From: Candidatus Eiseniibacteriota bacterium
GTDB taxonomy: Bacteria; Eisenbacteria; RBG-16-71-46
DNA length: 35,108 nucleotides
Assembly: GCA_025357055.1 (NCBI GenBank)
Contig: JANXPZ010000217.1
Coordinates: forward strand, 1-35,108
Reading direction: 5' to 3'
Positions 7,131 through 35,017 of the stretch are shown here, one piece after another. The notes under the pieces are model-generated. The model saw only the letters and a program-made list of their open reading frames with translations, did no database searches and had not been told where the DNA came from. The position numbers were made by a program, and so were the translations under genes. Positions within the stretch are counted from its first letter, which is position 1, and each line of letters begins with the position of its first letter.

Positions 7131-7494
7131 CGCGGTTCGTGGTCTTGAAGTAGCCCTCGCGCCGCATCTCCCGGAGTTCGACCGTGAAGTCGCACGGCCG
7201 CCCGGCCCAGGCCCCCTCGAACGCCGCCTTGAGGATGGCCAGCAGGCGCTCGCCGATCTCCTGCTGCTGCGCGGGCGCGCGACCGGCGAAGATGGCGACG
7301 GTCAGGTGGACGAAGACGCTCTCCGGCGAGCCGGCTCCGACGCGGAAGCACGCGTGCGGGACCGCGCGGCTCTTGAGGTCGACGAGCCGGAACGAACCGA
7401 TCTCCACCAGGGCCTCGTGCAGGCGGGCGAAGAGCGGGCCGAAGTCCACCGGTGCGGGCAGGTTGTCGGAGTATTCCAGCGTCAGGTGCGGCAT
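7102..7494 (-). CDS. 5-carboxymethyl-2-hydroxymuconate isomerase family tautomerase
   Basis: 130 aa, the normal size for the HpaF/CHMI family. It begins MPHLTLEYSDN, giving the catalytic amino-terminal Pro of the 4-oxalocrotonate tautomerase superfamily once Met is removed. Further family positions are LFARLHEALVEIGSF, SVFVHLTVAIFAGR and a C-terminal basic tail. HpaF isomerises a muconate semialdehyde product in homoprotocatechuate breakdown; no other hpa gene is here, so the substrate is probably a different enol/keto acid. It starts inside the last 13 bases of the glcE-like gene and so is the last gene of that operon. A 2-oxo-acid-producing oxidase beside a keto-enol tautomerase makes metabolic sense but is inference. 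Its last 29 bases overlap the convergent DUF5916 gene. Confidence 0.87.
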   Translation of the reverse strand: MPHLTLEYSDNLPAPVDFGPLFARLHEALVEIGSFRLVDLKSRAVPHACFRVGAGSPESVFVHLTVAIFAGRAPAQQQEIGERLLAILKAAFEGAWAGRPCDFTVELREMRREGYFKTTNRATSGTGTTP

Positions 7495-8753
7495 GCGCGT
7501 GGTGCTCCTTCCGGGAGATCGTCTCGTTGCCAGCGCGGTCCGTATGCCATCACGCCCGCGGGGTCGAGCGCCGCACGGATGCGCGCGCGCAGATCGAGCA
7601 CCGCCGCCTGCGGGGCGATGAGCGGTCCGAGCGAGGCGACGCCGGCCGGGTCGCCGTCACCCGCGACGGCCTCGATCAGCCTGAAGCCCCCGGTCGCGAG
7701 CGGCTCGATCAGGTCCCGCGCGGCGGTGGCGCCGGGGAAGATGTGCAGGCGGCCCGCCGCGGCGTGGAACAGCGCGCCGGCGGAGACCCCGGGGCGCTCG
7801 ATCAGGGGCGCGAGCGCCGCGGGCGTGTTGGCCGGACTGGTGAACGTGAGCCGCGCCCCGTCGCGGTCCTCGAGGTCGGCGAGCGCCTGCCACAACGCGG
7901 TCGCCGAGTCGTCCTCGAGCCGTGCGTCGGGCTCGCCCAGGAGGCGCTCGAGGGCCGAGATCTGTTGATCCACGCGCGGCTCGTCGTCCTCGAGGCCCAC
8001 GATCACGGTGAAGGGGTCGGTGGGCGAGGCGACCGGCAGCGTCCCGGCGAGCCCCTGGCCGACGATGGTGAGCAGCGCCGGCTCGAGCCGCGGCAAAGCC
8101 GCCCAGCGTGTCGCGTCGCCCAGCGCGCGGGCCCCCGTGCCGAACAGCAGTGCCACGCGCCGCGCCGGGGCCGGCGCGAGCTTGAGGCTGACTTCGAGCA
8201 GCACGCCGAGCCCGCCGCGCGAGCCGCACAGCAGCCGGTGGATGGCGTAGCCCGCGACGTTCTTCACCACGCGGCCGCCGCTGCGGGCGAGCGTGCCGTC
8301 CGCCAGGGCGAAGTGGGCGCCGAGGATGCGGTCGCGCGGTGCGCCGAAGCGCAGCCGGCGCGGGCCGGAGGCGTTCGCGGCCAGCAGGCCGCCGAGCGTC
8401 GCGCGTTCCGCCCGCGCGCCCTCGAGCGCCGTCTCCTGCCCGTGCGCGGCGAGGGCCTCGCGCAGCGCCCCGAGCGTGACGCCGCACTCGGCGGTGACGG
8501 TCATGTCCTCGGGGCTGTATTCCACCACGCGGTCGAGCGCGGTGAGGTCCAGCGCCAGGCCGTAGCGCCGCGGCGCGCGCCCGCGCGCGAGCGACACGCC
8601 GCCGCCCCAGGGCACGACGGTGAGCCCGTCGCGCGCGGCGTCGCGCAGGATCCCGGCCACCTCCTCGCGCGTGGCCGGTCGCCGCACGGACGATGGCTCG
8701 ACGCCCGCGATGGCGTAGCGGGCGGGCTCGGGCGGGGCGGGTTCCGGGCTCAT
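7482..8753 (-). CDS. glcE: FAD-binding oxidase, GlcE-like subunit of glycolate-type dehydrogenase
   Basis: 423 aa from ATG 8753, seven bases after the stop of the membrane-protein gene. The FAD_binding_4 (PCMH) fold covers about residues 20-195: VVPWGGGVSLARG for pyrophosphate binding, then YSPEDMTVTAECGVTLGALREAL, ATLGGLLAANASGPRRLRFG and VVKNVAGYAIHRLLCGSRGGLGVLLEVSLKLAP, the last being the characteristic GlcE signature. The C-terminus (LDLRARIRAALDPAGVMAYG) matches the usual oxidase ending. In E. coli GlcDEF, GlcE is the second flavin subunit that oxidises glycolate to glyoxylate. It is about 70 residues longer than E. coli GlcE. Substrate could be another 2-hydroxy acid. Confidence 0.85.
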   Translation of the reverse strand: MSPEPAPPEPARYAIAGVEPSSVRRPATREEVAGILRDAARDGLTVVPWGGGVSLARGRAPRRYGLALDLTALDRVVEYSPEDMTVTAECGVTLGALREALAAHGQETALEGARAERATLGGLLAANASGPRRLRFGAPRDRILGAHFALADGTLARSGGRVVKNVAGYAIHRLLCGSRGGLGVLLEVSLKLAPAPARRVALLFGTGARALGDATRWAALPRLEPALLTIVGQGLAGTLPVASPTDPFTVIVGLEDDEPRVDQQISALERLLGEPDARLEDDSATALWQALADLEDRDGARLTFTSPANTPAALAPLIERPGVSAGALFHAAAGRLHIFPGATAARDLIEPLATGGFRLIEAVAGDGDPAGVASLGPLIAPQAAVLDLRARIRAALDPAGVMAYGPRWQRDDLPEGAPRACRT

Positions 8754-8760
8754 GGGGTCG

Positions 8761-9987
8761 TCAGTCCACGATCCCGCGGCCCGAGGACACGGGCCAGCGC
8801 GCGATGCGAGCGAGGTGCGGAAGGGCGACCAGCACGAACGCGGTCCACAGCGCGTAGAGCGCGAGTCCCTCGCCGAACGCCGTGTGCAGCGCGCGCACCC
8901 AGCCCTCACGGCCGGCGCGCAGTTGGCGCAGCAGGAGCAGGAGCAGCGCGACGAGATTCATCACGTTCCAGCCGATCACGGTGAGGCGGTTGGCGGTGAG
9001 CCCGTCCTGGGTCGTCCGCGAGAGGATGGCGACGAGGGCGTAGGTGCTGATCACGGCGGCGAGCAGCGCGACGGCCGCGATGCCGCGCCGCAGCCAGGCT
9101 CCGTGGCGCGGTGCGAGGTCGTCGGCGCGCAGCGGCGTGGCTCCCACGAGCAGGAGCATCACGGCGAACAGCATCGCGTTGAAGATCAGGAGCGTCCCGC
9201 GGTTCTCCGCGAGCGCCCCGAATCGCGCCGGGATCACGACGGCCACGAGCAGCAGCACGAGGAGCGTGAGCGGCAGGAAGAGTCGCGCCGCGATGAAGAA
9301 GATCCGCGTCACGCCCGCGCCGGAGCGCTGGGCCGAGGGTCGCAGCCTGGGGTCGTAGACGCTCGCCACCGCCAGCACGGGGACGAGTCCGAGGAGGAAT
9401 GAGAAGGCCCCCTGGATGACCGGGGGGGGGATCTTCACCTGCAGCGCCGTGAGCAGGCCGATCGTGACGCCGGAGAAGATGGCCACCACGCCGGCGTAGA
9501 TCGCGCCCGTCACCAGCACCTCGATGGACTTGACCACCGCGGCGAAGCGCTCGAGCGGGTCCCCCACGCGGCCCAGCACGACCACGCCCATGACGAGCCA
9601 GGTGAGCGCGGGCAGGTGGATGGCGCTGAGCAGCGCCAGCTGGTCGTGGCGCTCCGGTGCGAACGTGAGCGCGTTCGTGACGAAGGAGGCGATCACCAGC
9701 ACGGCCCACGCGACCTGCGCGGGCTCGGGCGAAGCGGTCTCGCCCTCGCACGCTCCGACTGCCCGAAGGCGGCCGCGGGCGAGCCACAGGTAGAGCAGGA
9801 TCGCCACGCCGGTCGCCGGGCCCCAGACGTAGCCCGGCAGCAGGGTCACGCCCAGGCTGTGCCAGGTGGTCAGCCGGAAGACGACCCCGAGCGCGATGCT
9901 GAGCGTGATCGCGATCGGCCACGCGGCGCGGGGAACGGATGCGGAGTCGAGCCCGGTCGCTCGCTCTGCGGTCTGCGGCGGTCTCAT
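8761..9987 (-). CDS. Polytopic membrane protein between glcD and glcE, about 11 TM segments
   Basis: 408 aa from ATG 9987, whose ATGA overlaps the glcD stop by four bases, so it is translationally coupled. About eleven hydrophobic segments are visible (for example PIAITLSIALGVVFRLTTW, IFFIAARLFLPLTLLVLLLVAVVIP, LTVIGWNVMNLVALLLLLL). The part GLTANRLTVIGWNVMNL recalls the DUF4153 membrane family, but the match is by eye and weak. It occupies the position where glcF (iron-sulfur subunit) usually stands and contains no CxxC clusters, so it is not GlcF. It may anchor the soluble flavin subunits or take their electrons to quinone, or transport the acid; none of these is shown. A run of nine C on the coding strand (9422-9430) encodes Pro-Pro-Pro in a loop. 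Confidence 0.78.
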   Translation of the reverse strand: MRPPQTAERATGLDSASVPRAAWPIAITLSIALGVVFRLTTWHSLGVTLLPGYVWGPATGVAILLYLWLARGRLRAVGACEGETASPEPAQVAWAVLVIASFVTNALTFAPERHDQLALLSAIHLPALTWLVMGVVVLGRVGDPLERFAAVVKSIEVLVTGAIYAGVVAIFSGVTIGLLTALQVKIPPPVIQGAFSFLLGLVPVLAVASVYDPRLRPSAQRSGAGVTRIFFIAARLFLPLTLLVLLLVAVVIPARFGALAENRGTLLIFNAMLFAVMLLLVGATPLRADDLAPRHGAWLRRGIAAVALLAAVISTYALVAILSRTTQDGLTANRLTVIGWNVMNLVALLLLLLRQLRAGREGWVRALHTAFGEGLALYALWTAFVLVALPHLARIARWPVSSGRGIVD

Positions 9988-11447
9988 TTCCACGGTCCCT
10001 CCGGGTCGTTCCTGGCGTCGGTGTTCCCGGGCTGCGCTGCTGCCCGGGCGTGCGTCGGTGGCGGGCCGCCCGGCAGGATCTTGCCCGGGTTCAGCAGGCC
10101 GCCGGGGTCGAAGGCGCGGCGCAGCCGGCTCATCGTCTCGAGGTCGGCGGGCGCGTAGATCTCGCCCATCATCGGGATCTTCTCCAGGCCGATGCCGTGC
10201 TCGCCCGAGATGGTGCCGCCCAGCCGGATGCAGACGCGCAGGATCTCCTGGGAGACCTCGAGCGCCGCCCGGTGCTGCTCCTCGTCGTCGGGGTCGAAGA
10301 GGATGTGCGGGTGCAGGTTGCCGTCGCCCGCGTGCATCAGCGTGCCGGCGGCAAGGCCGCGCGCCTCCGCCAGCGCGTACACGGCGGAGACGACCTCGGC
10401 CAGGCGGGAGCGCGGCACCGTGCCGTCCATCTGGGTGAACGCGAGCCCGGTGCGCCCGTAGGCCCCGAACGACGACTTGCGCCCGCGCCACAGCGCCGCG
10501 CGCTCCGCCGCGTCGCTCGCCACGCGCACCGAGCGCGCACCGTGCTCCCGGGTGATGGCGGTGATGCGCTCGACCTGCGCCGGCAGGCTCACGGCCGGCC
10601 CGTCCACCTCGACGATGAGCGCCGCGGCCGCGTCCAGCGGCAGTCCCAGGTGCAGCCAGGCCTCGACCAGCTCCATGGTCCGGCGGTCCATCAGCTCCAT
10701 CGCGGCGGGCACGATGCCTGCGGCGATCACCGCGGAGACCGCGCGGCAGGCGTCCTCGATCCTGGCGAAGTCGACGCTCATGGTGTGAACGGCCTCGGGC
10801 CGTGGCACCAGCCGCACGCAGATCTCGCAGAGGATGCCGAGCGTGCCCTCGCTGCCGGCCAGCACGGAGGCGAGTTCCGCGTCGGGCGCATCCGGCGCCT
10901 CGCCGCCCAGCGTGACGACGCTGCCGTCGTGCAGCACGACGACCAGGCCGAGCACGTGGTTCGCCGTGACGCCGTGCTTGAGGCAGTGCGGGCCGCCGGC
11001 GTTGGCGGCGACGTTCCCACCGATCGTGCTGACCGGCTGCGAGGACGGGTCGGGCGCGAAGTGCAGTCCGTGCGGTGCCGCAAGCTCGGAGAGCCGCGCG
11101 TTCACCAGCCCCGGCTGGACCCAGGCGAACATCCGTTCCGGATCGAGCGCGAGCACCTGGTCCATGCGGCTCGTCACGAGCAGCATGCCGCCGCGGTGCG
11201 GCGTGGCGCCGCCGGCGAGCCCGGTGCCCGCGCCGCGGGGCGTCACCGGCACGCCGCTCGCGTGCGCCCAGCGCACCAGTGCCGCGACCTCGTCGGTCGA
11301 ACGCGGCAGCACCACCACGTCGGGCAGGCCGCGCTCGAGTGTCAGCGCGTCCGCCTCGTAGGCGAAGCGGGCCGCCCCGCTGTCGAGCACGCCGTCGTCA
11401 CCCAGCAGGGCGCGCAGTTCGGCGAGGATGTCCGGAGTCCAGTCCAT
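9984..11447 (-). CDS. glcD: FAD-linked oxidase, GlcD-like (glycolate/2-hydroxy-acid dehydrogenase)
   Basis: 487 aa, close to E. coli GlcD (499). Start ATG 11447 is placed by homology; an in-frame start at 11513 adds 22 residues without support. The FAD_binding_4 domain has VPVTPRGAGTGLAGGATP, DPSSQPVSTIGGNVAANAGGPHCLKHGVTANHVLG and AGSEGTLGILCEICVRLVP. The C-terminal FAD-oxidase cap has the metal/substrate motif HAGDGNLHPHILFD and SGEHGIGLEKI. Expected reaction: oxidation of a 2-hydroxy acid such as glycolate or D-lactate to the 2-oxo acid. It is the first gene of the glcD-membrane protein-glcE-tautomerase unit. Confidence 0.92.
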   Translation of the reverse strand: MDWTPDILAELRALLGDDGVLDSGAARFAYEADALTLERGLPDVVVLPRSTDEVAALVRWAHASGVPVTPRGAGTGLAGGATPHRGGMLLVTSRMDQVLALDPERMFAWVQPGLVNARLSELAAPHGLHFAPDPSSQPVSTIGGNVAANAGGPHCLKHGVTANHVLGLVVVLHDGSVVTLGGEAPDAPDAELASVLAGSEGTLGILCEICVRLVPRPEAVHTMSVDFARIEDACRAVSAVIAAGIVPAAMELMDRRTMELVEAWLHLGLPLDAAAALIVEVDGPAVSLPAQVERITAITREHGARSVRVASDAAERAALWRGRKSSFGAYGRTGLAFTQMDGTVPRSRLAEVVSAVYALAEARGLAAGTLMHAGDGNLHPHILFDPDDEEQHRAALEVSQEILRVCIRLGGTISGEHGIGLEKIPMMGEIYAPADLETMSRLRRAFDPGGLLNPGKILPGGPPPTHARAAAQPGNTDARNDPEGPWK

Positions 11448-11530
11448 GCGCAGCAGGGTAGCACCGCGTGGCGCGGTCGCGGCAAGCAGGGGAAGGTCGC
11501 GGGGGCCCGGCACGCCCGGACCGCGGGGGG

Positions 11531-12652
11531 CTACGAAGCGCTCGCGCGCATCCCGTCGGCGAGCCGCGTCACCGCGTCCTCGACCTGCCGGTAGCCGGTC
11601 TCGAGCAGGAAGTCCGGCTCGTGCCCGTGCGGCCCGTGGCCGAGCGCGAAGAACTGCGGCTCGTCGTCGTCCAACTCGCGGCAGAGCCCCTCGTCGGGCC
11701 CGAAGCCCGCGTTGACGATGACGCGGTCCGCCTCCTCGGTGCGCGTCTCCTCGCCGGTGGCGAGGATCACGCGGTAGCGGTGCGTGGTCGAATTGAACTC
11801 GAACTCATCGACCTCGGCGCCGCCGACGTGCGCCACCGCCGGGTGCGCGCCGGTGGCGAGCGCCCGCGCCCGCATCCGCAGTTCCCGCCGCCCGGACAGT
11901 GGATCGTGCTCCGCCGCCGGGAAGATCTCCGCCGCGATCGCACGCGTGACCCACGCCACCGTCGTGCCCGGCGCCTCCTCGGCGAGGCGCGCCAGGGCCA
12001 CGACCGTCGTCGCCGCGAACGTCCCATCGCCGATCACGACGGTGCGCCGCCCCGCGTACTTCTCGCGGTCCAGGCCCAGCACGTCCTCGACGTGATAGGC
12101 CAGTTGCGGCCGCAGATACAGCTCGCTGCGCGCCGGGATGCCGCCGGTGCCGGCCCAGTCGGGATGGGCGTAGACGCCCGAGGCGTCCACCAGCGAGAAC
12201 GCGTGATGGAAGCTCTCCCGCCCGCCCTGGTCGCGCACCAGCAGCCGGAAGGGCCGCGCACGGCGCGTGCCCGCATCCGAGCCCTCGCCCCGCAGGAGAC
12301 CGAGCCGGCCCGCCTGCACGACCTGCGTGAACGCGTGGATGCGCCCGGCCAGTTCGGGCAGCTGCGCGAGCGGCTGCAGGTAGCGCTCGGCCAGTTCCGC
12401 TCCGGTCGGACAGGTCTCGGGATCGGGCACGGCCCAGCCCGCGGCCTCGAGATGCGCGCGCGAGTGCCTCCCCAGGTTCATGCGCCAGGGCGTGAACATC
12501 CGCACATGGCCCCAGGCGAGCGGGTGCGAGCCCACTTCGCCCTGCTCGAGCACCTGCACGTCGAAGTCATGATCGAGCCCGGCGAGGGCGGCCTCGAGGC
12601 CGACCGGACCGGCGCCGATGATGGCCAGCGTCTCGGGGGCGGGAAACGGCAT
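11531..12652 (-). CDS. FAD/NAD(P)-binding flavoprotein, monooxygenase-like
   Basis: 373 aa. The N-terminus has the FAD Rossmann motif IIGAGPVGLEAALAG (residues 10-24). A second dinucleotide fold begins around residue 205 (TVVIGDGTFAATTVVALARL), an altered GxGxxA pattern for NAD(P)H. A late FAD motif may be VIVNAGFGPDE. This layout resembles flavin-containing monooxygenases and thioredoxin-reductase-like flavoproteins; the redox CxxC of TrxR is absent, which favours a monooxygenase-like or sensory role. Substrate unknown. The gene stands 53 bases after the EEP gene and has its own candidate promoter inside that gene's 3' end. Confidence 0.75.
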   Translation of the reverse strand: MPFPAPETLAIIGAGPVGLEAALAGLDHDFDVQVLEQGEVGSHPLAWGHVRMFTPWRMNLGRHSRAHLEAAGWAVPDPETCPTGAELAERYLQPLAQLPELAGRIHAFTQVVQAGRLGLLRGEGSDAGTRRARPFRLLVRDQGGRESFHHAFSLVDASGVYAHPDWAGTGGIPARSELYLRPQLAYHVEDVLGLDREKYAGRRTVVIGDGTFAATTVVALARLAEEAPGTTVAWVTRAIAAEIFPAAEHDPLSGRRELRMRARALATGAHPAVAHVGGAEVDEFEFNSTTHRYRVILATGEETRTEEADRVIVNAGFGPDEGLCRELDDDEPQFFALGHGPHGHEPDFLLETGYRQVEDAVTRLADGMRASAS

Positions 12653-19383: not shown

Positions 19384-20346
19384 ATGTCCCCCCGTGCACC
19401 GCGCCAGGTCCTCGCGCTCGCCCTGCTCCTCCTGCTGCCCTTGACGCTCTCCTCGTGCTCGGTCAAGCGCTGGGCGGTCCGGAGCGTCGCCAACTCCCTC
19501 ACCGGCGGCGTGGACGTCTACGGCACCGACGAGGACCCCGAGCTGGTGCGGGACGCGCTGCCGTTCGGCCTCAAGACCATGGAATCTCTGCTCGCGGTGG
19601 TGCCCGACCACGAGGGACTCCTGCTCACCCTCTGCAAGGGCTTCACGCAGTATTCCTACGCGTTCGTGCAGGCCGAGGGCGACCTGCTGGTGAACAGCGA
19701 CTACGCCCGGGCCACGGGCCTGCACGAGCGCGCGCTCAAGCTCTACCTGCGCGCGCACGGCTATGGGCTGCGTGGGCTCGAGAAGCGCTGCCGGGGCATC
19801 TCCACGGAGCTCCAGCTCGATCCCGTGAAGGCCGCGGCGCGCATCCAGAAGCGCGACCTGCCGATGCTCTACTGGACGGCGGCCTCGTGGGGCTCGGCCA
19901 TCTCGCTCGGCAAGGACCGGCCGGAGCTGCTGGCCGACCTGCCGGCGATCCGCGCGCTCATGGAGCGCGGACTCGCGCTCGACGAAGGGTACGAGGGCGG
20001 GGCGATCCACGAGGCGCTCATCCTGCTGGACGCGCTGCCCGAGGCGATGGGCGGCTCCGAGGCGCGCGCGCGCCGGCACTTCGCGCGGGCGGTGGAGCTG
20101 TCGAAGGACACCAAGGCCTCGCCCTACGTGACGCTCGCCACGACCGTCTCGGTGCTCAAGCAGGACCGCGGGGAGTTCGAGACCCTGCTGAACCGTGCGC
20201 TCGAGTTCGACCCGGACCGCGACCCGGCGCAACGCCTGGTCACGATCGTCCTGCAGCGCAAGGCCCGCTCGCTGCTCGAGCACGAGGACGAGTTCTTCGT
20301 CGACGAGACTGCTCCCCCCGACACCACGCAGACCCAGGAGAAGTGA
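19384..20346 (+). CDS. tatT: TatT family lipoprotein, TRAP-transporter-associated TPR protein
   Basis: 320 aa with a type II signal peptide ending LTLSSC (Cys25). The body is all-helical, TPR-like, with family features GFGL-type segment ALPFGLKTMESLLAVVPDHEGLLLTLCKGFTQYSYAFV and LPMLYWTAASWGSAI. TatT (Treponema pallidum Tp0956 is the studied member) is a periplasmic lipoprotein that forms a trimeric TPR scaffold with a pore able to bind the substrate-binding protein TatP, feeding ligands (proposed hydrophobic) to the TRAP permease. The next two genes are exactly that binding protein and permease, and its stop overlaps the dctP start by one base (TGATG). Confidence 0.9.
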   Translation: MSPRAPRQVLALALLLLLPLTLSSCSVKRWAVRSVANSLTGGVDVYGTDEDPELVRDALPFGLKTMESLLAVVPDHEGLLLTLCKGFTQYSYAFVQAEGDLLVNSDYARATGLHERALKLYLRAHGYGLRGLEKRCRGISTELQLDPVKAAARIQKRDLPMLYWTAASWGSAISLGKDRPELLADLPAIRALMERGLALDEGYEGGAIHEALILLDALPEAMGGSEARARRHFARAVELSKDTKASPYVTLATTVSVLKQDRGEFETLLNRALEFDPDRDPAQRLVTIVLQRKARSLLEHEDEFFVDETAPPDTTQTQEK

Positions 20347-21410
20347 TGGGACCTGTTTCCCGGATGAGCTGCTCCGTCCGTTCCGCCGTCCCGGCGGTGC
20401 TCTGTGCCGCGGCGCTCGCGCTGGCCGCCACCATGCTCGCGCCGGCGCCCGCGGCGGCACAGCCGCAGATCATCAAGCTCGCCACCCTCGTGCCCGAAGG
20501 CTCGGTCTGGGACAAGTCCATGCGCGACATGGGCGCCCAGTGGACCGCCGGCACGCAGGGACGGGTCGTGCTGCGCGTCTACCCGGGCGGCGTGGCGGGC
20601 GACGAGCCGGACCTGGTGCGCAAGATGCGCATCGGGCAGCTGCAGGCGGCGGCCGTCACCACCGCGGGGCTCGCCAACATCGACCCGGCCTTCAACGTCT
20701 TCAACATCCCGATGTTCTTCACCTCCTACCCCGAGCTCTACGCCACGCTCGACAAGCTCACCCCGGTGCTCAAGCAGCGGCTCGAGGCCAAGGGCTTCAT
20801 CCTGCTCGCCTGGGGGCACGGCGGCTGGGTCTACTTCTTCACCAAGCAGCCGGTCGAGTCGGCGGAGGGGCTGCGCAAGACCAAGATGTTCGTCTGGGCG
20901 GGGGACGACCAGATGGTGGCGCTCTGGCGGGAGCTCCACTTCCAGCCCGTGCCGCTCGCGGCCACCGACATCATGACCGCGCTGCAGACCGGCATGATCG
21001 ACTCCTATCCGACCACGCCGCTGCTCGGGCTCACGCTGCAGTGGTACCGGATGACGCCCAACCTGGTGGGCATGGGGCTGGCGCCGCTGGTGGGCGGGCT
21101 CGTCATGACCAAGCAGGCGTGGGCGAAGATCGCCGAGCCCGACCGCGCGCGCATCCTGGAGTCGTGCCGCCGGCTCGAGCACAAGCTCGAGGTCGAAGTG
21201 CCACGCCAGGACACCACCGCCGTGGCCGAGATGATGAAGCGCGGGCTCAAGGTGAACGCCGTGAGCGGGGCGAATGCCACCCAGTTCCGCCTGGTGGCGG
21301 AGGAGTTCGCCAACGGGATGAAGGGCATCCGCGTGCCGCCCGACATCCTCGAGCTGGCGCGCCGCGAGCGCGACGCGTACCGCCAGAAGAGCGGCGCAGG
21401 CACGCGCTGA
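20346..21410 (+). CDS. dctP: TRAP transporter substrate-binding protein, DctP/TatP type
   Basis: 354 aa from ATG 20346. Residues 1-38 are a long signal peptide ending APAAA before QPQIIKLATLVPEGSVWDKSM. The DctP fold is shown by QWTAGTQGRVVLRVYPGGVAGDEPDLVRKMRIGQLQAAAV, FNIPMFFTSYPEL, GWVYFFTKQPV and TDIMTALQTGMIDSYPTTPLLGL. The usual conserved ligand-carboxylate Arg of dicarboxylate-type DctP is not obvious by eye, in line with the TatT-linked subgroup, which may bind non-dicarboxylate ligands. Second gene of the TatT-DctP-DctQM operon; the permease starts seven bases after its stop. Confidence 0.9.
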   Translation: MGPVSRMSCSVRSAVPAVLCAAALALAATMLAPAPAAAQPQIIKLATLVPEGSVWDKSMRDMGAQWTAGTQGRVVLRVYPGGVAGDEPDLVRKMRIGQLQAAAVTTAGLANIDPAFNVFNIPMFFTSYPELYATLDKLTPVLKQRLEAKGFILLAWGHGGWVYFFTKQPVESAEGLRKTKMFVWAGDDQMVALWRELHFQPVPLAATDIMTALQTGMIDSYPTTPLLGLTLQWYRMTPNLVGMGLAPLVGGLVMTKQAWAKIAEPDRARILESCRRLEHKLEVEVPRQDTTAVAEMMKRGLKVNAVSGANATQFRLVAEEFANGMKGIRVPPDILELARRERDAYRQKSGAGTR

Positions 21411-21416
21411 TCCACG

Positions 21417-23246
21417 ATGCCTGACGCACCGCAGCCGCGGCCGGGTGGCGTCCTGGCGGCCCTGAGGAACCTCGAAGGCGGGGTGCTGGTCCTCGCCTTC
21501 CTGGTCTCGATGGCGCTGCCGCTGATCGACGCCGTGGGCCGCCCGTTCGGCGGCTTCGCGGTCCCCGGCTCGGCCACCTACCGCGCGCAGTTGACGCTCT
21601 GGCTCGCCTTCCTCGGCGGCCTGCTGGCGACGCGCGAGCGGCGGCACCTGACGCTCTCGACCGCCGAGGTGTTCGGACACGCGAAGGCGCGGGACGTCGC
21701 GCGCCTGTTCTCCTCCGCGGTCGCGGCCGCCGTCTGCAGCGTTCTGGCCTACTCGGCCTGGGGGGTGGTGCTCGCCGACCGCGCGCAGGGCGAGGTGCTG
21801 GCGATCGGGCTGCCGGTCTGGATCAGCGAGTGCGTCATGCCGGTGGCGCTGGCGCTGATCGCGATCCGCCTGGCGTGGGGCGCGGCGGACGGCTGGAGGG
21901 GCAGGGCGCTGGCGTTCGGCGCCATGGCGTTCGCCTTCGGGCTCGGAGCCGTCCCCGCGGTCGGGCACGCGCTCTGGGTGCCGGTCCTGGCGGTGATCGT
22001 GCTGGCCGCGCTGGTCGGCGCGCCGGTCTTCGTCGCCATGGGCGGCATCGCGCTGCTGCTGTTCTTCAAGGACTCCGTGCCGGTCGCGTCGGTGACGGCG
22101 GAGGTCTACCGGCTCATGCTCTCGCCGACGCTGCCGGCCATCCCGCTGCTGACCGCCTGCGGTTACGTGCTGGCCGAGTCGCACGCCTCGCTGCGCCTGG
22201 TGCGCTTCTTCCGTGCGCTCTTCGGCTGGATGCCCGGCGGCGTGGCGGTGCTGGTAGCCGCGGTGTGCGCGCTGTTCACCACCTTCACCGGCGGCTCGGG
22301 CATCACCATCATGGCGCTGGGCGGGCTGCTCTATCCCATCCTGCGAGAGGAGAAGTACCCGGAGGGGTTCTCGCTCGGTCTGGTGACCGCCTCGGGCAGC
22401 CTCGGACTGCTCTACCCGCCCAGCCTGCCGGTCATCCTCTACGCGGTCGTGGCCAGCGTGCCCGCTGACTCGCTCTACCTCGCCGGCCTGCTGCCCGGCA
22501 CCCTGCTGGTGCTGCTCGTGGCGCTCTACGGCATCCGCGTCGGCGGCAAGGTCCAGGCCCCGCGGCAGGCGTTCTCGTTCAAGGAGGCGCTGTTCTCCGG
22601 CTGGGCGGCCAAGTGGGAACTGTCCGTGCCGGTGCTGGTGGTGGTGCTGTTCACCACCGGGATGGCCACCATGGTCGAGGCCGCGGCAGTGGCCTTCGCC
22701 TATGCCATCGTGATCGAGTGCTTCGTGATGCGCGACATCCACCCGGTGCGCGAGCTGCCCGGCGTGCTGCTCAAGGCCGGCGTGCTGTGCGGCTCGGTGC
22801 TGATCCTGCTGGCGAGCGCGATGGGGCTCACGAGCTGGCTGGTGGACGCGCAGATCCCGATGGCGCTCCTGGCCGCGGTGCGGACGCACATCCACTCGCC
22901 GGTCGTCTTCCTGCTGGTGCTCAACGTCGTCCTGCTGGTGCTGGGCAGCGTGCTCGAGATCTACTCGGCGATCATCATCCTGGCGCCGCTGGTGGCGCCC
23001 ATCGGGGCCGCGTTCGGCATCAACCCCATCCACCTTGGCGTGGTGTTCCTGGCGAACCTCGAGTTGGGGTTCCTGTTCCCGCCGGTGGGGCTGAACCTCT
23101 TCCTGTCGTCGTCGCGCTTCAACAAGCCGCTGCCCGAGCTCTACCGGCACGTCCTGCCCTTCCTGCTCATCCTCGGCATCGGCGTGCTGCTGATCACCTA
23201 CATGCCGTGGATGACCACCGGCATCCTGGGGCTGCTGGGCCGGTAG
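21417..23246 (+). CDS. dctQM: TRAP transporter fused permease, DctQ-DctM
   Basis: 609 aa. Residues about 15-165 form the small four-helix DctQ part (LALWLAFLGG-like LTLWLAFLGGLLATRERRHLTL). Residues about 185-605 form the large DctM permease with twelve or so helices: ALVGAPVFVAMGGIALLLFF, IPLLTACGYVLAES, FTTFTGGSGITIMALGGLLYPIL, GLVTASGSLGLLYPPSLPVILYAV, EIYSAIIILAPLVAPI and LELGFLFPPVGLNLFL. These are the paired sodium/substrate-site loops of TRAP elevator transporters (GGSGIT and PPVGLN). Length equals the sum of separate Q and M proteins, so it is an intact fusion. It uses a sodium gradient to import the ligand delivered by DctP. Confidence 0.93.
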   Translation: MPDAPQPRPGGVLAALRNLEGGVLVLAFLVSMALPLIDAVGRPFGGFAVPGSATYRAQLTLWLAFLGGLLATRERRHLTLSTAEVFGHAKARDVARLFSSAVAAAVCSVLAYSAWGVVLADRAQGEVLAIGLPVWISECVMPVALALIAIRLAWGAADGWRGRALAFGAMAFAFGLGAVPAVGHALWVPVLAVIVLAALVGAPVFVAMGGIALLLFFKDSVPVASVTAEVYRLMLSPTLPAIPLLTACGYVLAESHASLRLVRFFRALFGWMPGGVAVLVAAVCALFTTFTGGSGITIMALGGLLYPILREEKYPEGFSLGLVTASGSLGLLYPPSLPVILYAVVASVPADSLYLAGLLPGTLLVLLVALYGIRVGGKVQAPRQAFSFKEALFSGWAAKWELSVPVLVVVLFTTGMATMVEAAAVAFAYAIVIECFVMRDIHPVRELPGVLLKAGVLCGSVLILLASAMGLTSWLVDAQIPMALLAAVRTHIHSPVVFLLVLNVVLLVLGSVLEIYSAIIILAPLVAPIGAAFGINPIHLGVVFLANLELGFLFPPVGLNLFLSSSRFNKPLPELYRHVLPFLLILGIGVLLITYMPWMTTGILGLLGR

Positions 23247-28905: not shown

Positions 28906-29655
28906 ATGAGCCCCCCTGTCTACGACTGGGATGCCGACGAGTACCTCACCTCCGAGGAGGAGCGCATGATCGACGAACTCGAGGCCATGCTGCGCCCACC
29001 GGCGCTGCCCATGGCCCCCTATCCCCCGAAATCCGTCCTGCTGGCGAGCGGCGAGACCATGGTGGTGCGCCAGGCCCTGGTGGAGGAAGTGGACCTGATG
29101 CTCAAGGTCATCCAGCCGCTCTCCTGGGTGACCCGCGACTTCTACGACATCGTCTCGGCCCGCCTGTTCGCCGAGCTGCTCGGCTGGAAGACGCACCGTG
29201 TGCGCGACGAGTACTGCCTGGTCGGCGTGATCGACGGCGTGCTGGCCGGCATCGTGAACGGCCGCCTCTTCGACGAGAAGCACGGCGTTTCGTTCCACAC
29301 GCTGACCCTCAAGCGCGGCCTGCGCGTGGGCTCGCACCTGTTCGCCTCGAAGATGGAGCACCACATCGAGTACCTGGGCCAGGACGAGGTCTGGATCGTG
29401 GCCGAGAGCCCGATCGGCCACCGGCGCTGGATGATCGAGTATCCGCTCGAGAAGAAGTTCGAGGTGCAGCACGAGCTGGGCGGCGCGCCCGCCTGGGTGC
29501 TGACCCGCGACACCTATTTCAAGGCCAAGTCGCGGCTGGTCACGGGCACGCGCCCGGTCTCCGACGAGCTGCTGGCGAAGTCCTACCCGCTGCGCGAGCC
29601 GGACCTGCGCGTCATGCTGACGCAGATCGAGCACACGCTGGAGGCCCGCGTATGA
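28906..29655 (+). CDS. GNAT-like acyltransferase, first gene of the thiolase-like cluster
   Basis: 249 aa from ATG 28906 with GGAG seven bases upstream. Residues 1-48 are acidic and disordered-looking. From VVRQALVEEVDLMLKVI (53-69) the order of elements resembles a GNAT N-acyltransferase: CLVGVIDGVLAGIVNG (beta-4 like), HTLTLKRGLRVGSHLFASKMEHH (131-153, the acetyl-CoA pyrophosphate region, R/Q-x-x-G-x-G/A type) and EVWIVAESPIGHRRWMIEY (161-179). The motif is divergent, so this is a fold-level call. Its ATGA overlaps the thiolase-like gene, so it is made with it and may acylate a substrate or carrier in the same pathway. No close named homologue comes to mind. Confidence 0.65.
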   Translation: MSPPVYDWDADEYLTSEEERMIDELEAMLRPPALPMAPYPPKSVLLASGETMVVRQALVEEVDLMLKVIQPLSWVTRDFYDIVSARLFAELLGWKTHRVRDEYCLVGVIDGVLAGIVNGRLFDEKHGVSFHTLTLKRGLRVGSHLFASKMEHHIEYLGQDEVWIVAESPIGHRRWMIEYPLEKKFEVQHELGGAPAWVLTRDTYFKAKSRLVTGTRPVSDELLAKSYPLREPDLRVMLTQIEHTLEARV

Positions 29656-30839
29656 GGGACGTGGCCATCGTCGGCGTGGGCTCGACGCAGTTCGGTCGGG
29701 CGCAGTGGAGCCTGCTCAAGATGATGTGCGAGGCGTCGAACGACGCCATCGTGGACGCCGGCATCGGCGAGCGGAAGATCGACGCGGTCTACGTCGCCAA
29801 CATGGGCGCGTCGCGCAACAACCGCATGGCCGGCCTGTCCAGCGGGCTCGTGGACCGGATGAACCTGTACCCGCACACGGTCTCCGAGACCATCGAGAAC
29901 GGTCCGGCCTCGGGGGCCTCGGCCATCAAGCACGGCGTGCACTCCGTGGCCTCCGGATACTGCGACCTGGTGCTGGTGTGCGGCGGCGAGCGCATGCAGG
30001 AGGTCAACAACTTCGAGGCGACCGAGTTCGTCTCCTACCTCTCGCATCGCTACGCCGAGTATCCCTACGGCGTGACGCTGCCCTCGCTGGCGGGCATGTT
30101 TACGCGCCTGTACATGGAACGCTACGGGGTCGAGGCCCGGCACCTGGCGATGGTGGCGATCAAGAACCACCTCAACGGCGCGAAGAACAAGAAGGCGCAC
30201 CTGCGCATCCCGATCACGATGGAGGGCATCCTGACCGGGCCGGACGCGCTCAACAACAATCCGTGGATCGCCGAGCCGCTGCGTTTCTTCGACTGCTGCC
30301 CGGTCAGCGACGGCTCCTCGGCGGTGCTGCTGGCGCCGGCCGAGATGGTGAAGGAGTTCAAGAAGACGCCGGTGCTGATCGCCGGCATGGGCCAGGCGAC
30401 CGACTCGCAGGCGGTGCAGGACCGGCCCGACCCGACCGAGCTGACCGCGGTGCGGATGGCGGCGGAACGGGCGTTCGCCATGGCGAAGCTGACGCCGAAG
30501 GACATCGACGTGGCCGAACTGCACGACGCCTTCACCATCCTCGAGATCGTCGAGAGCGAGGAGTGCGGGTTCTTCAAGAAGGGCGAGGGCCACAAGGCGC
30601 TCGAGCGGGGCGAGACGCAGATCGGCGGGAAGCTGCCCATCAACCCGTCGGGAGGGCTCAAGTCCCGCGGGCATCCCGTGGGCAACACCGGCGTGTCGCA
30701 GATCGTGGAGCTGGTGCTGCAGCTGCGCGGCGAGGCGGGCGACTACCAGGTGCCGAAGCAGCCGAAGCACGGTTTCGCCGTGAACTTCGGCGGTTTCGGC
30801 AACAACGTCGTCGCCACCGTGCTCAAGCGGGGGGTGTGA
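29652..30839 (+). CDS. Thiolase-fold protein lacking the nucleophilic cysteine (SCP2/Ltp2-like)
   Basis: 395 aa from ATG 29652. The thiolase fold is clear: MRDVAIVGVGSTQFG, a nucleophile-loop region IENGPASGASA (81-91), AELHDAFTILE with His291, SGGLKSRGHPVGNTG with His341 and the ending VNFGGFGNNVVATVL. In ordinary thiolases the loop reads VENACASG, with Cys as acyl acceptor; here Pro85 takes that place. The second Cys of thiolases (CxGG) is Asn378-Phe-Gly-Gly. So Cys-dependent Claisen condensation or thiolysis is not expected. Thiolase-like aldolases such as Ltp2 also lack the cysteine and work with DUF35 partners, and a DUF35 gene follows one base later. A retro-aldol or similar acyl-CoA lyase is therefore a reasonable, unproven guess. 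Confidence 0.85.
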   Translation: MRDVAIVGVGSTQFGRAQWSLLKMMCEASNDAIVDAGIGERKIDAVYVANMGASRNNRMAGLSSGLVDRMNLYPHTVSETIENGPASGASAIKHGVHSVASGYCDLVLVCGGERMQEVNNFEATEFVSYLSHRYAEYPYGVTLPSLAGMFTRLYMERYGVEARHLAMVAIKNHLNGAKNKKAHLRIPITMEGILTGPDALNNNPWIAEPLRFFDCCPVSDGSSAVLLAPAEMVKEFKKTPVLIAGMGQATDSQAVQDRPDPTELTAVRMAAERAFAMAKLTPKDIDVAELHDAFTILEIVESEECGFFKKGEGHKALERGETQIGGKLPINPSGGLKSRGHPVGNTGVSQIVELVLQLRGEAGDYQVPKQPKHGFAVNFGGFGNNVVATVLKRGV

Positions 30840-30840
30840 C

Positions 30841-31179
30841 ATGGCCATGAACGTCGAAGTCGCCAAGTGCACGAAGTGCGGCAAGCTCTCGTATCCGACG
30901 CACTTCTACTGTCCCTCGTGCCACGGTACGAAGTTCGAGCCGGTCCCGGTCGGGGGTGAGGGCAGGTTGCTGACCTGGACGCGGGTCTACGCGCTGCCGC
31001 TGGACTACGCCCAGCTCTACGTCACGCTCGGCATCGTCGAGCTGGACATGGGGGTGCGGGCGACCGGCCGGCTGGAGATCGCCGAGCCGAAGACCGGCGC
31101 GCGGGTGCGGACCCACATCGGCAAGGTGCGCGAGATCAACGGCAAGGACATCACCGGGCTGGTCTTCACAGCCGTCTAG
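30841..31179 (+). CDS. Zn-ribbon/OB-fold protein (DUF35), partner of the thiolase-like protein
   Basis: 112 aa. A rubredoxin-like zinc ribbon uses Cys10, Cys13, Cys24 and Cys27 (CTKC and CPSC), followed by an OB-fold (residues about 35-112: GEGRLLTWTRVYALP, YVTLGIVELDMGVRATGRLE, VRTHIGKVREI). DUF35 proteins bind thiolases or thiolase-like aldolases and shape their acyl-CoA channel, as in archaeal thiolase/HMG-CoA synthase complexes and ChsH2-Ltp2. It starts one base after the thiolase stop. An alternative start is ATG 30847. Confidence 0.9.
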   Translation: MAMNVEVAKCTKCGKLSYPTHFYCPSCHGTKFEPVPVGGEGRLLTWTRVYALPLDYAQLYVTLGIVELDMGVRATGRLEIAEPKTGARVRTHIGKVREINGKDITGLVFTAV

Positions 31180-31265
31180 TCCGGACGTTCCCGGTGCCCC
31201 GCGGCGCGCTCGCGACCGCGGGAGCACCGGCGTTCCGGGCGTCGGATCGCAGGGGAGAAGAGACG

Positions 31266-32120
31266 ATGAGTGGCTTCCGCTACGAAAGACCTGGCACGCT
31301 GGCCGAGGCCACCGCGCTGTTGGCCGGGGCCGGCGGAGGCGCGAGGATCCTGGCCGGCGGGACCGACCTGATGATCGCGCTGCGCGGCGGTCCGCAACCC
31401 ACCGTGCTGGTGGACATCAAGCGCATCCCCGAGCTGGGGGCCGTCCGCTGGACACCCGCGGGCGACCTCGAGATCGGCGCCTGCGTGCGGGTGCAGGACG
31501 TCGCCGATGACGCGCGCATCCGCGAGGTCTTCCCGGCGCTCGCGGAGGGGGCGGAGGCGATCGGCTCGCTGCAGATCCGCTGGCGGGCGACGGTCGCGGG
31601 GAACCTCTCGAACGCCTCGCCCTGCATGGACACGGCCCCGCCGCTGCTGGTGCTGAACGGGCGGTTGCGCGTCACGGGCCCGCAGGGGACGCGTGAGGCG
31701 CCGCTTGCGGACTTCTTCCTGGGCGTGAAGCAGACCGCGCTCGCTCCCGGCGAGCTGGTGACGGCGGTGATCGTGCCGAAGCCGGCCGCGGGGCTGAGCA
31801 GCGCGTTCGACAAGATCAAGCGCTCGTACGGTCACGACCTCGCGATCGTGAACTCGGCCGCCGCCTGGGACCCGGCGGCGGGCACGCTGCGCGTGGCGAT
31901 CGGCTCGTGCGCGGTGCGGCCGGCGCTGGTGCCGGCACTCGCGGGCGTGGGACCGAAGTCGGACCCGAAGCACGCCGGTGAGCGCCTTGCCGCGCTGGCG
32001 CAGGAGCACATCCTGCCGATCGACGACGTGCGGGCCTCGGCCGAGTACCGGCGCGAGATGACCAGCCTGCTGTGCCGCAGGCTTGCCGCGCGGCTGCTCG
32101 GCGCGGGGAGGACGTCATGA
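31266..32120 (+). CDS. Molybdenum hydroxylase FAD-binding subunit (XdhB/CoxM type)
   Basis: 284 aa from ATG 31266 with GGGGAG upstream. FAD_binding_5 domain with the flavin motif ARILAGGTDLMIALRGG (28-44), DIKRIPEL, and the second motif TVAGNLSNASPCMDTAPPLLVLNG. The CO-dehydrogenase flavoprotein C-terminal domain follows (SSAFDKIKRSYGHDLAIVNSAA). It passes electrons from the FeS subunit to NAD+ or another acceptor. It follows the DUF35 gene after 86 bases and its stop overlaps the next gene (ATGA). Confidence 0.92.
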   Translation: MSGFRYERPGTLAEATALLAGAGGGARILAGGTDLMIALRGGPQPTVLVDIKRIPELGAVRWTPAGDLEIGACVRVQDVADDARIREVFPALAEGAEAIGSLQIRWRATVAGNLSNASPCMDTAPPLLVLNGRLRVTGPQGTREAPLADFFLGVKQTALAPGELVTAVIVPKPAAGLSSAFDKIKRSYGHDLAIVNSAAAWDPAAGTLRVAIGSCAVRPALVPALAGVGPKSDPKHAGERLAALAQEHILPIDDVRASAEYRREMTSLLCRRLAARLLGAGRTS

Positions 32121-35017
32121 GTCTGCATCCCATCACGCTGACGGTGAACGGCGAGACCTCCACCCTCGAGGTCCCCGCGAACCGGACGCTGCACCAGCTG
32201 CTGGCCGAGGACCTGCACCGGCACGAAGTGAAGTCGGGCTGCTACATCGGCGAGTGCGGGCTGTGCACGGTGATCCTCGACGGCAAGCCGGTGAACTCCT
32301 GCCTGGTGTTCGCGGTCGAGGCCGACGGCGCGGTGATCGAGACCTCCGCCGCCGAGAACGGCGAGCCCGGCACGCTCTCCGACCTGCAGCAGGCGTTCGT
32401 GGACCACGGCGCCATCCAGTGCGGTTTCTGCACCCCGGGCATGCTCGCCTCCGCCCGCGCGCTGTTGCAGCGCAACCCGAAGCCGGCGCGTGACGAGATC
32501 GTCGAGGCGCTCTCGGGGAACTACTGCCGCTGCACGGGCTATCAGCCCATCATCGACGCAGTCGAGGCCGTGGCGAAGGGCGGCTACCGGGCCAAGCCCG
32601 CGCCCACGGCGCCCTACGTGGGCGGCGAGGCCAACCGCGTGGACGCGGCGGCGAAGGTGACGGGCTCGGCGACGTTCGTGCACGACATGGTGCTCGACGG
32701 GATGCTGCACGGCCGCATCCTGACCTCGCCGCATCCCTCGGCCCGCATCAAGCGCATCGACGTGTCGAAGGCGAAGGCGATGCCGGGGGTGAAGGCCGTG
32801 CTCACCGGCGCCGACCTGCCGTACAAGCTCGGGCTCTACATGGAGGACAAGGACATCCTCGCCCGCGGCGTGGTTCACCACCAGGGCGAGGCCGTCGCGG
32901 CGGTGGCGGCCGAGACCTGGATCCAGGCCAAGCTCGCCACGCTGGCCATCGAGGTCGAGTACGAGGTGCTGGAGCCGGTGCTCGACGTGCACGCCGCGCT
33001 GAAGGAGGGCGCGCCGCAGGTGCACCCGGGCCTGGCGGACTACTCGTGGATGAAGGGCGTGTTCTTCCCGCAGCCGGGCCGCAACACCGCCCACCACCAG
33101 AAGATCCGCAAGGGTGACGTCGAGCAGGGCATGGCCCAGGCGGACCACGTCTTCGAGTTCCACTTCCAGAACCCGCCGGTCCAGCACGTGCCGATGGAGA
33201 CGCACGTGGCCATCGCCACCGCGCGCGCCGACGGCGAGGTCGAGATCATCACCTCGGCCCAGTCGCCGTTCACCGTGCGCACGCTGTTCTGCCGCACCTT
33301 TGGCATGGCGCCGGGCAAGGTGCGCGTGCGGGTGCCCTACGTCGGCGGCGGTTTCGGCGGCAAGGCCGGCATCCACCTCGAGCCGCTGGTCTACTGCCTG
33401 TCGAAGGCGGCGGGCGGGCGTCCCGTGAAGATCAGCGCCACGCGCGAGGAGGAGTTCAACACCCTGCCTTCGCGCCAGGGGCTGCAGAGCACCATCAAGA
33501 CCGGGGTGACGAAGGACGGCCGCATCACCGCGCTCGACCTCACCTACCTGTGGGACGCCGGCGCCTTCGCCGACTACGGCGTCAACGTCGGACGCGCCGC
33601 GGCCTACTCCGGCGCCGGGCCCTACGTCGTGCCGAACTGCAAGCTCGATTCGCTGGTGGTCTACACCAACAAGATCCACGGCACCGCCTACCGCGGCTTC
33701 GGCCACCTCGAGGTGCTCTGGGGCATCGAGCGCAACATGGACATGGTGGCGCGCGCGCTGGGCCTGGATCCGGTCGAGTTCCGCAGGAAGAACCTGCTGC
33801 GCGTGGGCGAGACCACCATCACCGGCGAGCCATTCACGGCCGGTCACGGCCGGCCCGAGGAGTGCCTGCGACTCGTTAGCGAGGCGATCGGCTGGGACGC
33901 GAAGGCGCGCGCCGCCACGCCGGTCGCGCCGGGCTCGGGCAAGGTGCGGGCGAAGGGCGTGGCGATGCTGCACAAGGCGCCCGCCATGCCGACCTACACC
34001 TCGTGCGCTGTCACCATCCTGTTCAACGGCGACGGCTCGGCCAACGTGCTGGTGAGCGGCGTGGACTACGGCCAGGGGACCTACACCGCGCTCGCGCAGA
34101 TCGCGGCGGACGAGCTGCGGCTCCCGCTCGAGATGGTGCGCGTGCCGTGGGACAGCGACACCGACTACACGCCCTACGACTGGCAGACGGTGGCGAGCCG
34201 CTTCTCGGTGATGGGCGGCAACGCCGTCATCCAGGCGGCGAAGGAGTGCCTCGACCAGATCCGCAGCGTCGCCGGGCAGGCGCTGCACGCCCCGCCCGAG
34301 CAGATCGAGTGCGGCAATGGCAAGGTCTGGGTGAAGGGCAAGCCTGCCCGCACGCTGGACTACAGCCAGCTCGTGCTGGGCTACACCTACCCGGACGGCA
34401 GCAGCATCGGCGGACCGGTGATCGGCAAGGGCCGCTACATCGCCACCGGCCTGACGAACCTCGACCCGCAGACGGGCCAGGGGCTGCCGGCGCTCAACTG
34501 GACCTACGGCGCGCACGCCGTCGAGCTCGAGGTGGACACCGACACCGGTCACATCCAGGTGCTCAAGCTGGTCTCGGCCTTCGACGCGGGCAAGGTGCTG
34601 AACGCGCAGCAGTGCCGCATGCAGGTGATCGGCGGGGTGGTGCAGGGACTGGGCTCGGCGGTGATGGAGAAGTTCGTGTTCCAGAACGGCCGGCTGCTCA
34701 ACAATTCGTTCACGGACTACAAGATCCCGACCGCGAAGGACATCCCGGCCGAGATGCAGCAGTTCTTCGTCGAGACGCCGCACCCGCAGGGGCCCTACGG
34801 CGCGCGGGGCGTGGCCGAGCACTCGATGATCTCGGTGCCGGGCGCGGTGGGCAACGCGGTCGCGAACGCCACCGGCGTGGAGTTCTTCGAGCTGCCGCTG
34901 GATCCGGAGCGTGTCTTCCTGACGCTCAAGCGCGCGGCGGAGGGGAAGGCGCAGCCGGTGAAGACCGCCGACCCGGACCCACGTTCCACGCGGGTGCCCC
35001 CCGCGGCCAGGAAGTAG
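32117..35017 (+). CDS. Molybdenum hydroxylase, fused [2Fe-2S] and molybdopterin subunits
   Basis: 966 aa from ATG 32117. Residues 1-155 hold two [2Fe-2S] clusters: plant-type Cys42, 47, 50, 62 and the alpha-helical cluster Cys102, 105, 137, 139 (CGFC, CRC). From about 165 on is the molybdenum cofactor domain: GSATFVHDMVLDGMLHGRIL, VPYVGGGFGGKAG, GTAYRGFGHLEVLWGIE, SGVDYGQGTYTALAQI and GPYGARGVAEHS with Glu901 as the base that activates the metal-bound water. Here the usual GVGE reads GVAE. Fusion of the small and large subunits with a separate FAD subunit is less common than three genes. Substrate is likely a purine or other N-heterocycle or an aldehyde; the FdrA homologue downstream favours purine/ureide metabolism. 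Confidence 0.9.
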   Translation: MSLHPITLTVNGETSTLEVPANRTLHQLLAEDLHRHEVKSGCYIGECGLCTVILDGKPVNSCLVFAVEADGAVIETSAAENGEPGTLSDLQQAFVDHGAIQCGFCTPGMLASARALLQRNPKPARDEIVEALSGNYCRCTGYQPIIDAVEAVAKGGYRAKPAPTAPYVGGEANRVDAAAKVTGSATFVHDMVLDGMLHGRILTSPHPSARIKRIDVSKAKAMPGVKAVLTGADLPYKLGLYMEDKDILARGVVHHQGEAVAAVAAETWIQAKLATLAIEVEYEVLEPVLDVHAALKEGAPQVHPGLADYSWMKGVFFPQPGRNTAHHQKIRKGDVEQGMAQADHVFEFHFQNPPVQHVPMETHVAIATARADGEVEIITSAQSPFTVRTLFCRTFGMAPGKVRVRVPYVGGGFGGKAGIHLEPLVYCLSKAAGGRPVKISATREEEFNTLPSRQGLQSTIKTGVTKDGRITALDLTYLWDAGAFADYGVNVGRAAAYSGAGPYVVPNCKLDSLVVYTNKIHGTAYRGFGHLEVLWGIERNMDMVARALGLDPVEFRRKNLLRVGETTITGEPFTAGHGRPEECLRLVSEAIGWDAKARAATPVAPGSGKVRAKGVAMLHKAPAMPTYTSCAVTILFNGDGSANVLVSGVDYGQGTYTALAQIAADELRLPLEMVRVPWDSDTDYTPYDWQTVASRFSVMGGNAVIQAAKECLDQIRSVAGQALHAPPEQIECGNGKVWVKGKPARTLDYSQLVLGYTYPDGSSIGGPVIGKGRYIATGLTNLDPQTGQGLPALNWTYGAHAVELEVDTDTGHIQVLKLVSAFDAGKVLNAQQCRMQVIGGVVQGLGSAVMEKFVFQNGRLLNNSFTDYKIPTAKDIPAEMQQFFVETPHPQGPYGARGVAEHSMISVPGAVGNAVANATGVEFFELPLDPERVFLTLKRAAEGKAQPVKTADPDPRSTRVPPAARK
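34975..34998 (+). repeat. Third copy of the 24-nt palindromic repeat, inside the hydroxylase gene
   Basis: GGACCCAC (34975-34982), a 7-nt spacer (GTTCCAC) and GCGGGTGC (34990-34997) repeat the structure at 15853-15897. It encodes the last residues (DPRSTRVPP) before the stop at 35015-35017, a tail with no similarity to other hydroxylases, so the repeat may have extended the protein. Confidence 0.5.

Follow-up and report, generated by a model that had tools for sequence, protein, structure and literature searches.

Several proteins with the thiolase fold carry out their chemistry without the nucleophilic cysteine of ordinary thiolases. Thiolases that form an acyl-enzyme carry this cysteine in a CxS/CASG loop and an acid/base cysteine in an HDCF or CxG motif, and their Asn/His or His/His pair stabilises the enolate (PMC3406046). 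The steroid aldolases Ltp2-ChsH2 (6ok1) and Sal-Shy (9myr) have lost the nucleophile and work with a DUF35 partner, relying instead on Tyr294/Tyr344 in Ltp2 and on Tyr302/Cys304 in Sal, while the Cys-less thiolase-like protein TbSLP (5ab4-5ab7) is reported to decarboxylate malonyl-CoA only very slowly and Sal not at all (PMC12329534). KS-Q domains, the decarboxylases of polyketide synthase loading modules, belong to the thiolase superfamily and have the cysteine replaced by Gln with His retained. A further Cys-less protein, ST0096 from Sulfolobus tokodaii, has a solved structure (4yzo), but we found no function assigned to it. A DUF35 partner is, on the other hand, also found with the archaeal acetoacetyl-CoA thiolase (6esq/6et9), which keeps its nucleophile.

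We analysed a 35,108-nucleotide stretch of DNA, here called the window (Candidatus Eiseniibacteriota bacterium, assembly GCA_025357055.1, contig JANXPZ010000217.1). A sequence-only reading had pointed to a thiolase-fold protein in it with Pro in place of the nucleophilic Cys, without the second catalytic Cys, with both active-site His and with a DUF35 partner. It likened the pair to the aldolase Ltp2-ChsH2, while seeing no steroid genes. The observation was confirmed, whereas the interpretation was only partly supported. The features discussed below are collected in Table 1.

Results

Table 1. Positions of the features discussed, in the window and in related loci (L numbers denote loci of relatives).
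Sequence	Coordinates	Strand	Feature
Window	7482-12652	-	Two FAD-linked oxidase genes and a Pyr_redox-type gene in a row (glycolate-oxidase-like arrangement)
Window	19384-23246	+	TRAP transporter T-component (TAtT) and a fused DctQ-DctM permease
Window	28906-29655	+	Divergent protein with predicted GNAT fold (P0003); start uncertain, ATG at 28906 or 28966; ends in a 4-bp overlap with the thiolase start
Window	29652-30839	+	Thiolase-fold protein, 395 aa (Pro-thiolase)
Window	30841-31179	+	DUF35 / ChsH2-type Zn-ribbon + OB-fold partner, 112 aa; zinc-ribbon Cys10/13/24/27
Window	31266-32120	+	XdhB-type FAD subunit of a molybdenum hydroxylase (FAD_binding_5 + CO_deh_flav_C); the ORF opens at 31194, 31266 is the likely ATG
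Window	32117-35017	+	Fused XdhC-XdhA ([2Fe-2S] + Mo-cofactor subunits) of a xanthine-dehydrogenase-type hydroxylase, candidate uracil hydroxylase
L027	7524-8687		PF09663 ring-opening amidase
L117	3344-5137		PF09663 ring-opening amidase
L118	3506-4669		PF09663 ring-opening amidase
L119	12127-13308		PF09663 ring-opening amidase
L068	4325-5206		PF04199 cyclase-family gene (42 other loci also carry one)
L097 (Clostridiaceae BL-3)	10006-10995		3-Hydroxyacyl-CoA-dehydrogenase-like gene after carbamate kinase
L099 (Longilinea arvoryzae)	9564-10763		Acetate/propionate-family kinase just upstream of the operon

The thiolase-fold protein was first examined to confirm the loss of its cysteines. It matches Pfam PF22691 and PF00108 and reads SETIENGPASGASAI, with Pro85 at the nucleophile position of the loop IENGPASG; AELHDAF (H291, A293), GHPVG (H341) and NFGG (N378) are also present. 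A scan for relatives returned 80 loci, 55-73% identical, from Anaerolineae, Acidimicrobiia, Neomarinimicrobiota, Ignavibacteria, Zixibacteria, Eisenbacteria, Elusimicrobia, Riflebacteria, Verrucomicrobia, Clostridia and others. All 80 have ENGPASG, and in the alignment of all 81 proteins Pro85, H341 and N378 are invariant, while H291 is present in 80 with one gap. The proline is therefore not due to chance or a sequencing error. A wider signature of the family comprises N83-G84-P85, H132, Y139, C216, F382 and N384-N385.

To determine which cysteines are missing, we compared ten moderately related proteins (37-45% identical) from genomes of the window's family and class, which have VESACASG-type loops and HDCF. 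Position 378, where classical thiolases carry their second Cys (CxG), is Asn in these Cys-bearing relatives as well and is thus normal for the subfamily; the second Cys lost here is the one of HDCF (Ala293). That loss also occurs in BbsB (7pxp) and in the P. furiosus thiolase 7yvy, both of which keep the nucleophile, and only the Cys-to-Pro change is distinctive.

The position of the family was examined by sequence, structure and phylogeny. The AlphaFold model (pTM 0.92) gave 6et9/6esq as the best fold match, and sequence scores were highest for archaeal-type proteins (7yvy, 266 bits; 6esq, 240; 4yzo, 237), well ahead of Ltp2 (6ok1, 123 bits), Sal (9myr, 92 bits) and TbSLP (62 bits to the window's protein, P0001). 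Foldseek agreed that archaeal-type thiolases and 4yzo are the nearest relatives, ahead of Ltp2 and Sal. A FastTree analysis of 47 family members, 30 other thiolase-like proteins and 5 PDB sequences, which did not include Ltp2 and Sal themselves, placed all 47 members in one clade (support 0.83), with ST0096 as its sister (support 1.0). Loss of the Cys in this sequence alone, the outcome named beforehand as refuting the sequence-only reading, is excluded by these data. Other thiolase-like proteins without Cys were seen at L128, L129, L130 and L134, with a GGGTG loop, a YDPF motif and GN in place of GH; at L128 two such genes lie in tandem, and these proteins are possibly aldolase-like.

Analysis of the flanking genes identified a third partner. 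DUF35 is adjacent to the Pro-thiolase in 78 of 81 loci, but it was also adjacent to 12 of 12 Cys-bearing relatives and does not point to an aldolase. A gene of roughly 250 codons immediately upstream was present in 80 of 81 loci, with a gap of at most 12 bp in the 79 relatives measured, and was not found near the 12 Cys-bearing relatives. Its product has no family hit above cut-off, but its AlphaFold model (pLDDT 89.7) has the GNAT order of strands and helices and the listed Foldseek matches are GNATs (E about 1e-6). At the position of the acyl-CoA motif R/Q-x-x-G-x-G/A it reads RGLRVG (R139-G144), invariant or nearly so, with Arg at the middle Gly. The GNAT gene, not DUF35, marks the Pro clade.

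Clustering of the neighbours within about 6 kb gave a cyclase-family hydrolase (PF04199) in 43 loci, AllG (PF06545) in 41, CoA-ligase-type AllF in 37, XdhA in 31, AllH (PF11392) in 30, XdhB in 27 and XdhC in 17; these are lower bounds, as many loci are cut short. No MaoC hydratase was among the conserved neighbours. NCS2 permeases lie in 15 genomes, those tested scoring best with uracil-permease and RutG models; carbamate kinase flanks four operons and cytosine-deaminase-like genes flank two. Clostridiaceae BL-3 also carries upstream what reads, by eye, as a PucR-type regulator and Mo-hydroxylase maturation genes, one of them matched by similarity. The kinase gene near the Longilinea arvoryzae operon fits acetyl-CoA as an end product. 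Two regions, L102 and L104, on contigs not shown to be the right ones, were left out.

The operons that lack the cyclase, mostly from Acidimicrobiia, gave an indication of the ring that is opened. In four of them (L027, L117, L118 and L119) the operon holds a PF09663 ring-opening amidase. The NCBIfam equivalog for cyanuric acid amidohydrolase, tested on L118 and L119, scored above its cut-off (458 against 360 bits); all four, however, are 68-70% identical to solved barbiturase 5hwe and only 48-49% to TrzD, and they carry Asn (SNG, as in 5hwe) where cyanuric acid hydrolases have Arg188 (SRG) (PMC4051656, which gives Gln for its barbiturase subgroup). Across 40 genomes, PF09663 was found in 10 of 11 without the cyclase and in 0 of 29 with it (Fisher p = 1.3e-8). 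The 11th is a 1.4-Mb assembly, and the two groups differ in taxonomy, so the p-value overstates independence. We read these data as indicating that the ring is barbiturate and that the cyclase is a candidate second, non-homologous barbiturase.

In 47 genomes of the window's phylum, AllG was found in two, G019 and G095, the only other genomes with the Pro-thiolase (p = 0.003). In G095 the GNAT-thiolase-DUF35-Xdh genes and an AllF-AllG-cyclase block lie about 25 kb apart on one contig, and G019 has AllF-AllG-cyclase in a row. Of 36 genomes with no, or only partial, operon in view, 24 have AllG somewhere and 12 have none detectable. In the window itself the contig ends at 35108, 91 bp after XdhC-XdhA. 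The closest relative, L003, has the same gene order (the XdhC-XdhA neighbour being 68% identical) followed directly by AllF, with AllG further along its contig. Searches of the window's own assembly revealed no AllG, no PF09663 barbiturase and only a weak, unrelated AllF hit; this may be a gap, and membership of the window's copy in the full pathway is inferred from relatives. No Rfam or tRNA features were found in the window.

Discussion

Our preferred explanation, to which we assign a probability of about 0.45, is that the Pro-thiolase is one subunit of a three-protein, CoA-dependent module (GNAT, thiolase-fold protein and DUF35) that handles the three-carbon product of oxidative pyrimidine breakdown. 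In this view, nucleobases would enter through the NCS2 permease, uracil (or thymine) would be hydroxylated to barbiturate by XdhABC, and the ring would be opened to ureidomalonate by the cyclase or, in lineages that lack it, by true barbiturase. AllFGH acts on an acyl-urea in E. coli (PMC11326118), and ureidomalonate is the next homologue; by analogy with oxalurate to oxamate, transfer of the carbamoyl group to phosphate would give malonamate and carbamoyl phosphate, from which carbamate kinase would make ATP. The module would then turn the malonyl unit, whether met as malonamate, malonate or an upstream acyl-urea, into acetyl-CoA, CO2 and NH3. The GNAT would form or exchange the thioester, DUF35 would bind CoA and close the pocket, and the thiolase-fold subunit would decarboxylate the thioester, with two His stabilising the enolate and Pro removing both the nucleophile and a backbone N-H, so that no acyl-enzyme can form. 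A protein that keeps this His pair but has lost the nucleophile and the acid/base Cys would be suited to making an enolate by loss of CO2, as KS-Q domains do.

The analysis itself establishes the conservation of the residues, of the module and of the operon, and the mutual exclusivity of barbiturase and cyclase. The pathway is well supported by context, but the substrates of XdhABC, the cyclase and AllFGH in these operons, including carbamoyl transfer itself, are inferred, and the decarboxylase chemistry is a further inference from residue pattern and pathway, without biochemical support. Clade-wide conservation is near certain and a nucleobase/barbiturate context is likely; AllFGH acting on ureidomalonate is somewhat more likely than not, while decarboxylation by the thiolase subunit, which is probably a CoA-dependent C-C-bond-cleaving enzyme, remains tentative. 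The slow or absent decarboxylation by TbSLP and Sal shows that loss of Cys alone does not make a decarboxylase, and we know of no precedent for a GNAT forming a thioester from an amide. The lack of detectable AllG in 12 of 36 genomes also speaks against the explanation, as does the absence of AllG, AllF and a PF09663 barbiturase from the window's own assembly, which may be a gap. The 3-hydroxyacyl-CoA-dehydrogenase-like gene of BL-3 is not explained by the proposed pathway.

It is also possible, however, that the thiolase-fold subunit is a retro-aldolase like Ltp2 or Sal that cleaves a beta-hydroxyacyl-CoA, with DUF35 helping to shape the pocket. Absence of the Cys, the DUF35 partner and the dehydrogenase-like gene of BL-3 would fit, and the sequence-only reading was right that this cannot be an ordinary thiolase and that no steroid genes are seen. 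Kinship to Ltp2-ChsH2 is, nevertheless, not supported: the family has HDAF where Ltp2 has its catalytic Tyr in YDHF and Sal has Tyr302 and Cys304 in YDCY (His291 and Ala293 here), and the second catalytic Tyr344 of Ltp2 is probably His341 here, judging by equal spacing without alignment of Ltp2 itself. Retro-aldol chemistry would need a base such as these Tyr, the closest relatives are archaeal-type thiolases, DUF35 is not diagnostic, and no beta-hydroxyacyl-CoA is expected in nucleobase catabolism. We consider this explanation unlikely. Equally unlikely is an acyl-transfer or Claisen-type enzyme working without an enzyme-bound acyl group, for example by direct transfer between CoA and a substrate held by the GNAT or DUF35 subunit; the His pair, the similarity to archaeal acetoacetyl-CoA thiolase and the adjacent acyltransferase fold are compatible with it, but Pro removes the nucleophile and a backbone N-H, and no ketoacyl-CoA step is evident in the operon.

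Slightly less improbable, though still doubtful, is that the GNAT-fold subunit is the catalyst, itself decarboxylating or transferring a malonyl unit, and that the thiolase-fold protein with DUF35 is a catalytically silent CoA-binding scaffold. The GNAT gene is as strictly conserved as the thiolase and has many invariant residues, and GNAT-like domains occur in polyketide loading modules (PMC7242659); some GNAT-like domains decarboxylate malonyl thioesters. The conservation of both active-site His and the surrounding loops is, however, more than a bare scaffold would need. About as doubtful is that the operon serves another heterocycle (cyanuric acid, a purine, hydantoin or allantoin) and the module a different acyl-CoA. 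XDH-type hydroxylases, NCS2 permeases, PucR-type regulators and AllFGH are best known from purine catabolism, and NCBIfam names the ring-opening amidase cyanuric acid amidohydrolase, but the similarity of the amidase to barbiturase and its lack of the Arg of cyanuric acid hydrolases argue against this, and cyanuric acid gives no carbon skeleton for a CoA enzyme. An ordinary thiolase whose Cys was lost only in this genome by decay or assembly error is refuted by the conservation of Pro85, although a generic thiolase model scores almost at its cut-off (PRK06064, 410.7 against 420 bits).

If the full reading is right, which is possible but somewhat less likely than not, these operons encode a widespread, undescribed, ATP-yielding route that ferments pyrimidines: uracil to barbiturate by a molybdenum hydroxylase, ring opening by a new cyclase-family barbiturase, phosphorolytic carbamoyl transfer by AllFGH homologues, and conversion of the malonyl remainder to acetyl-CoA by a new decarboxylase complex. 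Literature searches, limited to open-licence papers, found no description of this combination. It would give candidate genes for oxidative pyrimidine breakdown (a uracil hydroxylase and a second kind of barbiturase), explain why AllFGH homologues occur with nucleobase genes in many uncultured bacteria, and add a member to the small set of thiolase-fold enzymes that do C-C chemistry without a cysteine. The database names thiolase, oxamate carbamoyltransferase and cyanuric acid amidohydrolase are probably wrong for these operons.

Among described proteins, ST0096 shares with the Pro family the AELHDxxTILEI region, FKKGEG and NPSGG, but is about 35% identical and has Ser aligned with Pro85 and Met with Ala293. 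The archaeal acetoacetyl-CoA thiolase and 7yvy are the best fold and sequence matches (37-40% identical) and have the same His pair; they keep the nucleophilic Cys, 6esq also keeps HDCF, and no GNAT subunit is known for them. In Ltp2-ChsH2 and Sal-Shy, DUF35 is fused to or acts with a MaoC hydratase, whereas here it is a free protein. KS-Q domains offer a functional analogy only, acting on ACP-bound substrates. TbSLP has a YDCF motif and no known DUF35 or GNAT partner. Finally, barbiturase homologues, as in the Rhodococcus-type oxidative pyrimidine pathway (barbiturase, ureidomalonase), and homologues of AllF, AllG and AllH of the E. coli oxamate carbamoyltransferase are both present in these operons; in the proposed pathway an AllFGH-type phosphorolytic step would replace ureidomalonase, with the GNAT-thiolase-DUF35 module downstream.
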